This document shows positions 7,883 to 13,204 of a stretch of DNA of 37,809 nt, piece by piece (position 1 is the stretch's first letter; the number at the start of each line of letters is the position of its first letter). The notes beneath the pieces are model-generated. The model made no database searches. It was given only the letters and a program-made list of their open reading frames with translations, and was not told the origin of the DNA. This DNA comes from an uncultured Bacteroidota bacterium (GTDB lineage Bacteria; Bacteroidota; Bacteroidia; Flavobacteriales; Flavobacteriaceae), in NCBI GenBank assembly GCA_902594745.1, contig CACJNF010000010.1:1-37809 (forward strand), written 5' to 3'. Both the position numbers and the translations under genes were made by a program.

Positions 7883-8548
7883 ATGTCGTTGATTTCTATA
7901 TTTAAATCTTCTATTGGAAAGAAGCTTTTAATGGCCTTGTCAGGTATCTTTCTTGTAGTTTTTTTAACTCAACATTTTCTAATTAATATTACTTCAGTTT
8001 TTAGTGAGGAAATATTTAATTTCTTATCCCATTTTATGGGAAATAACCCCATTGTCCAATTTATATTACAACCAATATTGATATTTGGTGTCATTTTTCA
8101 TTTTGTAATGGGTTTTTATTTAGAAATTATAAATAGAAAATCTAGAGGTGCTAATTATACAAGATATGCCGGTGGAGATAATGCTCCATGGATCTCCAGA
8201 AATATGATATTTAGCGGTGGTGTAGTGCTTTTATTTTTAATCCTTCATTTTTATGATTTTTGGGTTCCAGAGATGAATTATAAATATATTGAGTTCCTTC
8301 CAGAAGATCCAAATAGATACTATGAAGAGTTAATACATAAATTTGAAAGTCCAATTAGGACCTTAATTTATTCTGTTTCATTTATCTTCTTAGCTCTTCA
8401 TCTTTTACATGGTTTCAGTTCATCATTTAAAACTATAGGTGTTGATTCTAAATATTATAAACCTATTAAATCACTTACATTTATTTTTTCTATTCTTATT
8501 CCTTTTGGTTTTATTTTTATTGCAGTTTTCCATAATCTAATGCATTAA
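7883..8548 (+). CDS. sdhC: Succinate dehydrogenase cytochrome b subunit
   Basis: This is the membrane anchor of complex II, of the single-subunit b558 type typical of Bacteroidota. It has five predicted transmembrane helices (roughly 14-36, 58-82, 103-123, 155-176, 190-214). Candidate haem-axial histidines lie within them, including H31 (LTQHFL) and those in IFHFVMG, ILHFYDF and LHLLHGF. It passes electrons from SdhB to menaquinone. The length of 221 aa is normal. It is the first gene of the sdh set, and the unusual spacer before sdhA is described separately. Confidence 0.92.
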   Translation: MSLISIFKSSIGKKLLMALSGIFLVVFLTQHFLINITSVFSEEIFNFLSHFMGNNPIVQFILQPILIFGVIFHFVMGFYLEIINRKSRGANYTRYAGGDNAPWISRNMIFSGGVVLLFLILHFYDFWVPEMNYKYIEFLPEDPNRYYEELIHKFESPIRTLIYSVSFIFLALHLLHGFSSSFKTIGVDSKYYKPIKSLTFIFSILIPFGFIFIAVFHNLMH

Positions 8549-8553
8549 TATAT

Positions 8554-8575
8554 TGGGGCACAAAATGGGGTACAA
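8554..8575 (+). repeat. Paired 10-bp direct repeats TGGGG(C/T)ACAA between sdhC and sdhA
   Basis: TGGGGCACAA (8554-8563) and TGGGGTACAA (8566-8575) recur at a 12-base period. They are G-rich in a very AT-rich gap, 28 bases before an ORF that begins with an integrase arm-like domain. Tandem short repeats of this kind are what an integrase arm domain binds, so they may be a leftover of an integration site or integrase promoter. That role is inference. Confidence 0.55.
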
Positions 8576-8590
8576 CTAAATTAAAAGTTA

Positions 8591-8598
8591 TATATTTG
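8591..8598 (+). promoter_or_regulatory. Candidate -7 promoter element (TATATTTG) before the sdhA fusion ORF
   Basis: This is an exact TAnnTTTG match only five bases before the ATG at 8603, so a transcript from it would be almost leaderless. If real, it gives sdhA a promoter inside the sdh operon, possibly inherited with the integrase-like sequence. No matching -33 box is visible. Confidence 0.4.
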
Positions 8599-8602
8599 TA
8601 TT

Positions 8603-8896
8603 ATGGGATTATATCTTACAGAAAAACACATAAAATACAAAGATGGTAAAGACGACCATGTCTCACCCTTTTTTATATATCATAATAATAATAAAAGGGC
8701 TAAATTTTTTTGTAGCCTTAAGGTTAATAACAAAAATTGGTGTTTTGACAAAAAGAAAGTTAAGTCAACAGATAAAGATTCTGGCACAAAAAACAGAAAG
8801 ATAAAGTCAATTAAGTCTCAACTCGAATCTATTATCTCATCCTTTGAAACTAAAAAAGAACCTTTAACTCCTGAAAAATTAAAATCAGAATTTGAG
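8603..8896 (+). pseudogene. Remnant 5' end of a tyrosine-recombinase gene (arm-binding domain), fused to sdhA
   Basis: The first ~98 codons of the sdhA ORF look like the beginning of a Bacteroidota phage/element integrase. They have a beta-rich stretch with [16 protein letters not shown], a conserved V-x-x-K-N-W, then a helix [15 protein letters not shown] and [10 protein letters not shown]. No core-binding domain and no R-H-R-Y catalytic domain follows or occurs elsewhere in the window, so only the 5' end remains. The family call is by pattern recognition. An alternative is an unrelated lineage-specific SdhA extension. Confidence 0.6.
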
Positions 8897-10942
8897 ATTT
8901 CCAAGCTATTAGATAATGAGGTAAAAAATATTAAAACAAAACCTACTATAAATTCTAGAGTCCCAAATGGTCCCCTTTCCTCTAAATGGGAATCCCATAA
9001 AGGAAGCATAAACCTTGTTAGCCCATCAAATAAGAGAAATATTGATATAATTGTTGTTGGTACTGGCTTAGCCGGTGCATCTGCCTCAGCAACTCTAGCT
9101 GAGTTAGGTTATAATGTTAAAGCCTTCTGCTTTCAGGATTCTCCTAGAAGAGCTCATTCAATTGCTGCTCAAGGAGGGATAAATGCTTCCAAAAATTATC
9201 AAGGTGATGGAGATTCAGACTACAGACTTTTTTATGATACAATCAAAGGAGGAGATTATAGGTCAAGGGAGGCAAATGTATACAGACTAGCTGAAGTATC
9301 TGGAAATATAATTGATCAATGTGTTGCTCAAGGAGTACCTTTTGCAAGAGATTATGGAGGTCTTCTTGATAATCGTTCTTTTGGAGGAGTTCAAGTTTCA
9401 AGAACATTTTATGCTAAAGGACAAACTGGTCAACAATTACTTTTAGGTGCATACTCAGCTATGAACAGACAAATTGCTAGAGGTAAAATTGAGATGTTCA
9501 GTAGACATGAGATGATGGATCTTGTTAAAGTGGATGGGAAAGCAAGAGGAATTATTGCAAGGAATCACGTTACCGGTAAACTTGAAAGATTTTCAGCACA
9601 TGCAGTTGTAATTGCTTCTGGTGGATATGGAAATATTTTTTATTTATCTACAAATGCTATGGGGAGTAATGTGACTGCTTCATGGAAGATTCATAAAAAA
9701 GGAGCCTACTTTGCAAATCCTTGTTTTACTCAAATTCATCCAACCTGTATTCCAGTATCAGGGGATTATCAGTCAAAATTAACTTTAATGTCTGAATCAT
9801 TAAGAAATGATGGAAGAATATGGGTTCCAAAAGATTTAACTGATGCTAAATTAGTCCAAGAAGGTAAGTTATCACCTCTTGATATAAAGGAAGAAGATAG
9901 AGACTATTATTTAGAAAGACGATACCCTGCATTTGGTAATCTAGTTCCAAGGGATATTGCTTCAAGAGCTGCTAAGGAAAGATGTGATAATGGTTTTGGA
10001 GTTAATAAAACAGGAGAGGCTGTGTACTTAGATTTCTCGCATGCAATTATTAGATATGGTAAGGAAAAAGCATTACTTAATGGACAAGATGAGAATAATA
10101 TTGAGATAGTAAAAAAATTAGGTAGAGAAATTATAAAACAAAAATATGGGAACCTGTTCCAGATGTATGAGAAAATAGTTGATGAAGATCCATATGTCAT
10201 GCCAATGAAAATTTATCCAGCTGTTCATTACACAATGGGCGGTGTCTGGGTTGACTATAACTTAATGACTACAATTCCAGGTTGTTTTACAATAGGTGAG
10301 GCAAACTTTTCTGACCATGGAGCAAATAGGTTAGGAGCTTCTGCGCTAATGCAAGGATTGGCTGATGGATATTTTGTTTTACCATATACTATAGGGGATT
10401 ATTTGTCTGATGATATAAGTACAGGTAAAATTAGTACTGACACTAAAGAATTTGAGGAGAGTGAAAATGGTGTACAAGACTTACTTATAAAGCTAATATC
10501 AAATAAAGGGAAAAATTCTGTTGATCATTATCATAAAAAATTAGGAAAGATAATGTGGAATAAATGTGGTATGTCAAGAAATCAAAATGATTTAGTTGAT
10601 GCAATTAATGAAATAAAAAAATTGAGAAACGACTTTTATAAAAATGTAAATGTAACTGGCAAGATTAGTGAATATAATGAGGAACTTGCAAAAGCAGTTA
10701 GAGTTGCTGATTTTCTTGAGTTAGGAGAGTTGTTTGCAAAAGATGCATTAGAAAGAAATGAATCTTGTGGAGGACATTTTAGAGAAGAATATCAGACAAA
10801 AGATGGAGAAGCTATTAGAGATGATAAAAATTTCAAATTTGTTTCAGCTTGGGAATATGTTGGTGAGCCTTCTGATGCTAAACTTCATAAAGAAGATCTT
10901 AAATATGAAGAAATAGAAGTTAAAACAAGATCTTACAAATAA
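8603..10942 (+). CDS. sdhA: Succinate dehydrogenase flavoprotein with integrase arm-like N-terminal fusion
   Basis: This catalytic subunit of complex II oxidises succinate to fumarate with covalent FAD. From about residue 118 ([13 protein letters not shown]) it is an ordinary Bacteroidota SdhA, with FAD fold [10 protein letters not shown] (GxGxxG 153-158), FAD-linked H185 in [17 protein letters not shown], and the [16 protein letters not shown] block. It is 779 aa long, roughly 110 more than usual. Residues 1-98 instead resemble the arm-type DNA-binding domain of tyrosine recombinases ([37 protein letters not shown]). There is no internal ATG, GTG or TTG at the join; where the native start is expected there is ATA (8948-8950). 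Translation therefore appears to begin at 8603. The next ORF starts two bases after the stop. Confidence 0.9.
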
Positions 10943-10944
10943 TT

Positions 10945-12462
10945 ATGAGATATATACTAACAATATTATTAATTTCAATATCAATAAATTTACACCCTCA
11001 GACTTTTGATAGAAAAATTCCTTCAGATACTAAGGTTATTACAGAACATTCAACTAATATTCTTGGTAAAAAAGTAAACTATTCGGCTCAAATTGGAACT
11101 CAGCCAATATGGGATTCTAAAGGCGAAGTTATTGCAACTCTTCATTATACATATTATAAAAGAACTGATATAGATGATAATTCAAATCGTCCATTAGTAT
11201 TTTCATTTAATGGAGGACCCGGGTCTGCATCAATATGGATGCACATGGGTTATACTGGACCATATAGTTTGATTATTGATGATGAAGGATACCCTATACA
11301 ACCATATGGTTATAAGACAAATCCATATTCAATTCTTGATGTTGCAGATATTGTTTTTGTTAATCCTATTAATATTGGTTTTTCAAGAATACTAAAAGAT
11401 ATGACTAAAGATGAAGCATCAGAAAAATTTTTTGGTGTCAATCAGGATATTAAATATTTAGCTGAGTGGATAAGTACTTTTGTCTCGAGATCAGAAAGAT
11501 GGAAATCTCCTAAATATCTGGTTGGTGAAAGTTATGGTGGTGTAAGGGTAATGGGATTAGCTCATGAGTTACAACAAAATCAATGGTTATATCTAAATGG
11601 AGTAGTACTTGTTTCTCCTGCTGATTACGAACTTCAAGATTACAACTATGCAAGAGGTGGTGGAAATATTGTTCAGCCAGTTGTTGATTTTCCCTATTTT
11701 ACAGCTACAGCATGGTATCATAAAAAATTAGGTGATGAACTTCAGAAAAAAACTTTGTCTGATGTAATTGAAATTTCCGAGGATTTTGCTTACTATGATT
11801 TACTTCCTTCAATTGCAAAAGGTGGATATTTAAATAAAAATTTGAAAGAAGACATTGCAAAAAAAATTGAATCCCTTACAGGAATAGGATACAATGTAAT
11901 ATTAGATAATAACCTAATAATAACAACTGGATTATTTTGGAAAGAATTATTAAGAGAAGAGGGCTTAACAATTGGAAGATTAGATTCTAGATATAAGGGA
12001 ATTGATAGCAAAGATGGAGGAATTTATCCTGAATATCCTCAAGAACTTAGTTCATGGGACCATGCATTTACTCCTGCAATGAACTCTTACATCAGAGAGA
12101 AATTAAACTTTAAAACAGATATAAAGTACAATACATGGGCGAGAGATGAATTGTCAGTTAGACCATGGAACTCGGATAATGTAAATATTAGAAGAAGGTT
12201 TAGAGAGGCTATCGCAGAGAACCCATTTTTAAATGTTTTGATTCAATCTGGATATTATGATGGAGCAACAACTTTTTCTGCTGCGAAATATACTATACAA
12301 CAAGTTGACCCGTCAGGGAAATTAAGCGATAGATTTACTTTTAAAGGATATGAAAGTGGTCACATGATGTATTTAAGGAGAGAAGATCTTCAGAAATCAA
12401 ATCAAGATTTAAGAGATTTTATTCTTAAAACTGTTACCGAAAATACCCCAGCAAAATATTAG
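10945..12462 (+). CDS. Serine carboxypeptidase, peptidase family S10, inside the sdh operon
   Basis: This exported S10 alpha/beta-hydrolase removes C-terminal residues from peptides. It has a signal peptide at about 1-19. The oxyanion-hole motif is FNGGPGSAS (88-96), and the nucleophile is S196 in GESYGG (194-199). The later acid and base are in SGYYDGAT and ESGHMM, so the catalytic triad is complete. The length of 505 aa is normal. It begins two bases after sdhA and ends one base before sdhB, so it is co-transcribed with complex II. A peptidase in this place is not part of the usual sdhCAB arrangement and has no obvious functional link. Confidence 0.92.
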
Positions 12463-12463
12463 T

Positions 12464-13204
12464 ATGAAACTTAACCTCAAAATTTGGAGACAAAAGAATT
12501 CAGAGTCAAAAGGTGGCTTTGAGAATTATGTTATAGATAATATTACCCCAGATATGTCTTTTCTTGAAATGATGGATGTACTTAATCAAAAATTAATCTA
12601 TGAAAATATTGATCCAATTTCATTTGATCATGATTGTAGAGAAGGAATTTGTGGTAGCTGCTCACTATTTATAAATGGAAGAGCTCATGGCCCTGATAAG
12701 GGAATCACAACATGTCAACTTCACATGAGAAAATTTAAAGATGGGGATTCAATAGTTATTGAGCCTTTTAGAGCTAAATCGTTTCCTATTATTAAAGATT
12801 TAGTTGTTGATAGGTCAGCCTTTGATAGGATTCAACATTCAGGTGGTTATATTAGTATAAATACTTCTGGAAATACTCAAGATGCAAATACTACACCAAT
12901 TAGAAAAGAGGATGCAGATAATGCCTTTGATGCTGCTACCTGTATTGGATGTGGTGCGTGTGTTGCAACATGTAAAAATGCATCTGCAATGCTTTATGTA
13001 TCTGCAAAAGTTTCGCAATTTTCTTATCTACCACAAGGAAAGGTAGAGGCAAAAGAGAGAGTATTAAATATGGTTAAACAAATGGATGATGAAGGTTTTG
13101 GAAACTGTACAAATACTGGTGCATGTGAGGTAGAATGTCCAAAAGGAATTTCAATAAAAAATATAGCTAGGATGAACAGAGAGTTTTATAAAGCTAAAAT
13201 CTAA
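12464..13204 (+). CDS. sdhB: Succinate dehydrogenase iron-sulfur subunit
   Basis: This is the electron-transfer subunit of complex II, at the cytoplasmic face. The N-terminal ferredoxin domain holds the [2Fe-2S] cysteines C58, C63, C66 and C84 (CREGICGSC). The C-terminal domain holds [11 protein letters not shown] (C160, C163, C166, C170) and [14 protein letters not shown] (C215, C221, C225) for the [4Fe-4S] and [3Fe-4S] centres. All ligands are present. The length of 246 aa is typical for Bacteroidota. It ends in a perfect hairpin shared with the convergent hydrolase gene. Confidence 0.97.

Follow-up and report, generated by a model that had tools for sequence, protein, structure and literature searches.

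The window (the whole stretch of DNA analysed here, 37,809 nucleotides of contig CACJNF010000010.1 from an uncultured member of the Flavobacteriaceae) belongs to a 1.27 Mb draft genome of 16 contigs that is 84% complete. At its sdh locus, sdhA is flanked by sdhC and sdhB, and it carries a 5' extension preceded by a promoter and two short boxes (Table 1). sdhC homologues adjoined sdhA in all 18 loci checked. The feature as a whole starts at about 8555, upstream of the interval 8603-9010 in which a first-pass annotation, made from the sequence alone, had placed it. A Peptidase_S10 (serine carboxypeptidase) gene at 10945-12462 lies between sdhA and sdhB of the window. A match to this family was also present at L117, L118, L119, L121, L124 and L126, while none was found at L120, L122, L123 and L125; since its presence varies in the genus, the carboxypeptidase gene does not track the fusion.

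Table 1. Features of the sdhC-sdhA-sdhB locus, in coordinates of the window.
Feature	Coordinates	Strand	Basis
sdhC (cytochrome subunit), 5' neighbour of the fusion gene	7883..8548	+	Sdh_cyt 24.4 bits, slightly below the cut-off of 25.8
Box 1, GGGGCAC, -48 from ATG, proposed arm-type site	8555..8561	+	11 of 11 type-1 sequences
Box 2, GGGGTAC, 12 bp downstream of box 1, at -36 to -30	8567..8573	+	covers the -33 promoter position
-7 promoter box TATATTTG	8591..8598	+	TAnnTTTG, 12 nt before ATG
sdhA fusion frame, 779 aa, ATG start	8603-10942	+	ORF list and sequence
Arm DNA-binding domain of integrase type (fusion residues 1-98)	8603..8896	+	Arm-DNA-bind_5, hhalign, AlphaFold2
Variable linker, residues 99-116	8897..8950	+	faster amino-acid change; alignment with non-fused relatives
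sdhA part, complete SdhA flavoprotein subunit	8951..10942	+	FAD_binding_2, Succ_DH_flav_C, PRK07573
sdhB, iron-sulfur subunit	12464..13204	+	Fer2_3, Fer4

The in-frame join of an arm-like sequence to a complete SdhA, proposed in the first-pass annotation, was borne out: a single ATG-started frame encodes both. The extension alone matched Pfam Arm-DNA-bind_5 over residues 20-94 with 39.5 bits (cut-off 22.6), and the family scored 34.4 bits when the whole 779-residue protein was searched. It was likewise found, by the same cut-off, in distant copies of this kind of extension (type 1 hereafter): 40.7 bits in L121 and 39.1 bits in L119. On the enzyme side, PRK07573 (the SdhA model) covered residues 114-779 with 1151.9 bits, the core being complete, and both FAD_binding_2 and Succ_DH_flav_C were present. 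Moreover, hhalign matched the type-1 extension to 16 flavobacterial integrase arms at 97.6% (E 3.5e-12), although these arms were drawn from hits of the type-1 profile and of the profile of a second, type-2 extension (below) and are not an independent sample. The earlier assignment to integrase arm families thus agrees with both profile comparisons. No integrase match for the window's extension came from PHROGs or NCBIfam.

AlphaFold2 modelled the extension by itself as strands followed by two helices (pLDDT 82.0, 11 alignment rows); Foldseek of this model against the PDB gave no match at E 0.001, and the model of the full-length fusion was poor (pLDDT 50.8) and was set aside. The Phage_integrase catalytic domain was absent from the 779-residue protein (Pfam, E 1), as was any proline dehydrogenase family (E 1), so that the protein is not PutA itself. 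By its families, the chain unites an enzyme and a DNA-binding domain, without an internal start between them.

This last point was borne out by a codon scan: in the window no in-frame ATG, GTG or TTG occurs from codon 2 to codon 40 of the SdhA core, in line with the earlier reading that start codons are missing near the join and that the native start was lost. Across the type-1 set, the last 28 codons before the core were free of start codons in ten of eleven sequences, the exception being L121 with a TTG at -5; L035, also of type 1, has a TTG at -29 relative to the core. As encoded, the SdhA product is not makeable without its DNA-binding N-terminal domain, and the fusion is obligate. Non-fused members of the genus start their SdhA with M(S/N)K(L/I), followed by NSKIPKGPL or similar. 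Their native Met aligns with AAA at 8939-8941 in the window, while ATA at 8948-8950, which had been taken for the decayed Met, falls at the fourth residue of these relatives (native Leu), and that detail was accordingly abandoned.

Among the 25 genomes of the genus (own genome included), 12 were fused, 5 were non-fused and 8 were without a match, the genus genomes being incomplete (54-95%). In the 24 relatives this corresponds to a joined frame in 10, a split frame in 1 (G006, where the extension ends one contig and the SdhA start opens another), a normal SdhA start in 5 and no match in 8. Several of the named genus records are isolates called AG-nnn, a style of name used for single-cell genomes. 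The type-1 extensions were 57-93% identical to the window copy. Hence the possibility, raised with the first-pass annotation, that the extension is a conserved SdhA feature of all relatives holds in part: 12 genomes have it, and 5 have SdhA without it.

Selection was assessed by Nei-Gojobori counts on 13 chosen pairs from 11 type-1 sequences. For the extension, comparing the window with its three closest relatives gave a dN/dS of 0.08-0.14; the ratio was 0.06-0.08 between the window and L036 and L035, 0.17 for L035-L036 and 0.13 for L120-L121; among distant type-1 pairs, which were near synonymous saturation, it was 0.12-0.30 where computable. The SdhA core was lower still (0.015-0.08). Within the extension, the two segments differed. 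Residues 1-98, the arm, had pN of 0.017-0.021 vs pS of 0.27-0.36 in the three closest pairs, and the linker pN of 0.16-0.17 vs pS of 0.23-0.40; for example, between the window and L034 the values were pN 0.021 and pS 0.357 for the arm, and pN 0.155 and pS 0.292 for the linker. Amino-acid change in the linker was faster than in the arm in all 13 pairs compared. With its low pN, the arm is maintained at the protein level; the linker, with a higher pN, is maintained to a lesser degree. By these substitution patterns, the extension is under purifying selection. The idea that part of an integrase gene had landed in front of sdhA stands as regards the arm fusion and the lost start; a recent date does not, the same extension occurring in 12 of 25 genomes, and a recent insertion was rejected because synonymous sites are near saturation between distant type-1 copies.

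Upstream of the fused genes, the motif GGGGYAC occurs twice at 12 bp in all 11 type-1 sequences, in a fixed geometry within flanking spacer sequence that varies, and the TAnnTTTG element begins exactly 12 nt 5' of the ATG in the same 11. The spacer between sdhC and sdhA is 51-54 bp in type 1; in the five relatives without the fusion there is no spacer, the stop codon of sdhC and the ATG of sdhA overlapping. At the level of genomes, the tandem GGGGYAC-N5-GGGGYAC was found in 12 of 12 fused vs 0 of 5 non-fused members of the genus, and a reversed control pattern was found in none of them. The pair occurs once in 11 of the 12 fused genomes, own genome included. The twelfth, G020, has two extra tandem pairs, one within a coding gene and one before another gene: the latter (GGGGTAC/GGGGCAC, L202 near 2342 on the minus strand; G020:C4:49140-49158) lies about 30 bp before a gene that by eye resembles a class V aminotransferase or cysteine desulfurase, and this gene may be a second target, confined to G020.

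In PMC9723704, the flavobacterial TAnnTTTG box is placed at -12 to -5, from which the predicted transcription start in the window is 8603, the A of the ATG. The fusion mRNA is accordingly predicted to be leaderless with its start at 8603, a class that makes up only 5.5% of the mRNAs mapped in F. psychrophilum according to the same paper (PMC9723704), which counts against the prediction.

A comparable arrangement was found before integrase genes. The tandem-repeat test looked for 9-bp repeats at 8-14 bp and used 200 shuffles (p floor 0.005), with an upstream stretch of 100 bp for sdhA and of about 136-160 bp, partly coding, for integrases. All 11 type-1 sdhA loci passed, each at 12 bp, while among 42 hand-picked control sdhA loci without an extension 3 passed p 0.05 and none did so at 12 bp. 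The integrase set comprised 26 genes found via the type-1 and type-2 profiles, several of them close kin; 19 were confirmed by Pfam Phage_integrase and 7 were recognised by recombinase motif only (L157, L162, L171, L172, L198, L199 and L200). The best repeat was at 12 bp before 17 of these genes (p <=0.035) and at 11 bp before a further 3 (p <=0.015), giving 20 of 26 with a spacing of 11-12 bp; no passing repeat preceded the other 6 (L154, L158, L159, L161, L173 and L206). When the phylum was searched with the type-1 profile, the best-scoring protein other than SdhA was L203 (30.5 bits), an integrase with two copies of GTTGTACCC upstream at 12 bp; read on the opposite strand, this sequence is GGGTACAAC, which resembles the type-1 box GGGGTACAAC. 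No tandem repeat precedes L154 (28.0 bits), which ranked second among the arm matches in the order. The 12-bp arm-site pattern takes an extreme form at L205, where at least six head-to-tail 12-bp units (cccctgagctgt) precede an integrase gene of another family.

We also searched for a donor. In the window's own genome, Arm-DNA-bind_5 matched sdhA and one other frame, the latter at 20.8 bits and below the cut-off. This frame (L113; G000:C4:6005-6208) encodes 574 residues, with a 9-bp repeat at 12 bp upstream; it matched no Pfam family at E 0.001 and was excluded from the integrase counts. It is perhaps a divergent recombinase. As the only candidate, below the cut-off and without a Pfam family, it was rejected as a remnant of the donor integrase. 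A tblastn search found no viral relatives of either the type-1 or the type-2 arm. Tandem GGGGYACAA occurs in 23 stretches of viral contigs, but long frames beginning up to 250 bp after these stretches did not resemble integrases by eye.

Two further kinds of SdhA extension were found in marine Flavobacteriales. Type 2, at 18 distinct loci, is another arm-like extension. Of five scanned against Arm-DNA-bind_5, L042 reached 29.8 bits, L043 and L096 stayed below the cut-off, and L129 and L053 gave no match; profile comparison with the same 16 integrase arms, themselves partly recruited by the type-2 profile, gave 96.3% (E 2e-9). Type 3, at 8 loci, places an excisionase-type HTH on SdhA (HTH_17 at 48-55 bits in the three scanned; TIGR01764 at 43.1 bits in the one scanned), and the fused domain was the sole HTH_17 (E 0.001) in four of the five type-3 genomes scanned, both copies being fused in the fifth. 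One type-2 protein, L181, has a long Ser/Asn/Lys-rich linker and 164 residues before the SdhA core. One draft genome, G125 (5% contamination), has two different type-3 SdhA fusions (L177 and L178), which are either two copies or the product of a mixed bin.

Each of these types is accompanied by sites of its own. Type-2 spacers, whose sites are of the GTGTTAC kind, held 42 GTGTTAYA in 2,177 bp vs 9 in 141,168 bp elsewhere in the 18 loci, and type-3 spacers held 38 RGACAW in 1,257 bp vs 94 in 39,051 bp elsewhere; as the motifs were picked after the spacers had been viewed and the loci are related, these ratios express a contrast and not a probability. At least one GTGTTAYA site was present in 16 of 18 type-2 spacers. 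In the other two, L180 and L183, the spacer is almost missing, L183 being a shorter copy of L043; 4 of 4 GTGTTA copies in the 1,642 bp upstream of sdhA at L180, and 5 of 6 in the corresponding 3,000 bp at L043, precede sdhC. In type 3, RGACAW is repeated in exact 10-bp steps at L178, L184 and L185. Conversely, L049/L127 and L179, which fall within the type-3 clade but are without the HTH, have spacers of only 7 and 17 bp, and L188, of the same family and outside the tree, has a 21 bp spacer with no RGACAW site. The shuffle test was passed by 6 of 18 type-2 and 2 of 8 type-3 loci; most do not reach significance, as not all of their sites adjoin one another. Type-2 and type-3 sites vary in position with respect to the core promoter, and some lie at or after the predicted start.

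In a quickly built tree of SdhA cores, monophyly was not rejected for type 1 (p 0.161) and was rejected for type 2 (p 0.0001), although in such a single-protein tree gain, loss and transfer look alike. Type 1 may therefore have arisen once in the genus and been lost again from some members, or may have been passed between members, while by this tree the pattern of type 2 is one of several origins, losses or transfers.

Regulatory use of the extension, one of the options offered in the first-pass annotation, is a sound guess; candidate boxes and a promoter accompany the domain. We consider it probable that a captured integrase 5' module makes SdhA an autoregulator at its own promoter, most likely as a repressor when unassembled. 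Under this model: i) an integrase gene would have supplied its 5' module, consisting of tandem boxes, a promoter and the arm domain, which was captured between sdhC and sdhA and kept as a unit; ii) the arm of SdhA would bind the two GGGGYAC boxes over its own -33 position, two subunits sitting side by side at the 12 bp spacing; iii) this binding would set transcription of sdhA and the following genes; and iv) free SdhA, not assembled with SdhB and SdhC in the membrane complex, would repress, so that flavoprotein synthesis is matched to assembly or flavin state. The sign of regulation is read from box position alone: box 2 sits at the sigma -33 contact and some type-2 and type-3 sites lie at or after the predicted start, which makes blocking likelier than activation. 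Since a membrane enzyme must be free in order to bind DNA, unassembled SdhA is the proposed repressor. In this scheme the sequence itself supplies the domain, the obligate fusion, the purifying selection, the conserved boxes with their promoter geometry and the parallel cases, whereas binding, its regulatory sign and the signal are inferred.

The opposite sign is the alternative that survives best, though we think it unlikely. The fusion would then bind its own promoter as an activator, with box 2 replacing a missing -33 element and SdhA aiding RNA polymerase at a weak promoter; this would account for the lack of any visible TTTG element at -36 to -30, where box 2 lies, but the varied promoter positions of type-2 and type-3 sites, some downstream of the predicted start, suit blocking better. 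It is more doubtful still that the extension serves complex assembly or membrane contact while the boxes are promoter elements for other factors. Such a reading draws on the putative status of DNA binding by the extension, and on the weak fold signature that type-2 extensions keep; against it, all 12 genomes with the domain have the boxes, all 5 without the domain lack them, and domains as unlike as arm and HTH each come with their own repeat.

Two simpler fates of the extension fare worse. Cleavage after translation, which would release the arm as a peptide, either regulatory or idle, and leave SdhA in its usual form, could make use of the variable linker between arm and core, but the linker sequence is not conserved and we regard this as very improbable. 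Slightly fainter is the prospect of a functionless insertion relic. Five genus members do live without the extension; however, purifying selection, the invariant boxes and the existence of DNA-binding extensions of two other kinds on SdhA all speak against a relic, and the earlier suggestion that the piece is merely tolerated does not fit a dN/dS of 0.06-0.17 in close pairs. Finally, an assembly chimera or frameshift artefact, conceivable in a 16-contig draft, was rejected and deserves practically no credence, because ten other assemblies contain the same joined frame, in every case free of internal stops.

Whether the autoregulator reading extends beyond the genus is for us an evenly balanced matter: in marine Flavobacteriales, SdhA would have been made a self-regulating transcription factor via captured mobile-element 5' modules of at least three kinds, each with cognate sites. 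If true, the enzyme itself would govern expression of the TCA cycle in these streamlined genomes, the signal being assembly or flavin state; the bacteria concerned have small genomes and few regulators and are abundant in the ocean. Promoters of mobile elements would then be captured jointly with DNA-binding domains as ready-made feedback modules, and repeatedly so for one enzyme.

Among open-licence papers we found none on a DNA-binding TCA-cycle respiratory subunit or on integrase arms used in this way. Several known systems nevertheless resemble parts of it. Compared with ordinary Bacteroidota SdhA (PRK07573), the fusion shares the complete core between sdhC and sdhB, and differs by 116 extra residues and its own promoter between sdhC and sdhA. 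The arm domain and arm sites of Bacteroidota arm-binding tyrosine recombinases have been described (PMC8138268). Like these IntCTnDOT-like enzymes, the fusion has an N-terminal Arm-DNA-bind_5, and direct repeats of about 12 bp lie upstream, as they do for 20 of 26 integrases; unlike them, it has SdhA in place of the core-binding and catalytic domains. Excisionase HTH proteins (TIGR01764, HTH_17) are matched by the type-3 extension under both models, with sites in 10-bp steps, but the type-3 HTH stands on SdhA and has no integrase neighbour as far as seen. The closest functional parallel is PutA of Salmonella, which according to PMC6978683 acts as proline dehydrogenase and also represses the put operon directly. 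PutA, a trigger enzyme that adjusts its own synthesis to the use of proline, and the fusion are alike in being respiratory-linked flavoenzymes with a DNA-binding domain in the same chain and sites at their own genes (candidate sites in the case of SdhA), and it is by this likeness that unassembled SdhA would be the repressing form. On the other hand, the DNA-binding domain of PutA is a ribbon-helix-helix, whereas SdhA carries an integrase arm or an excisionase HTH and is a membrane-complex subunit and TCA-cycle enzyme. Self-repressing enzymes as such are already known.
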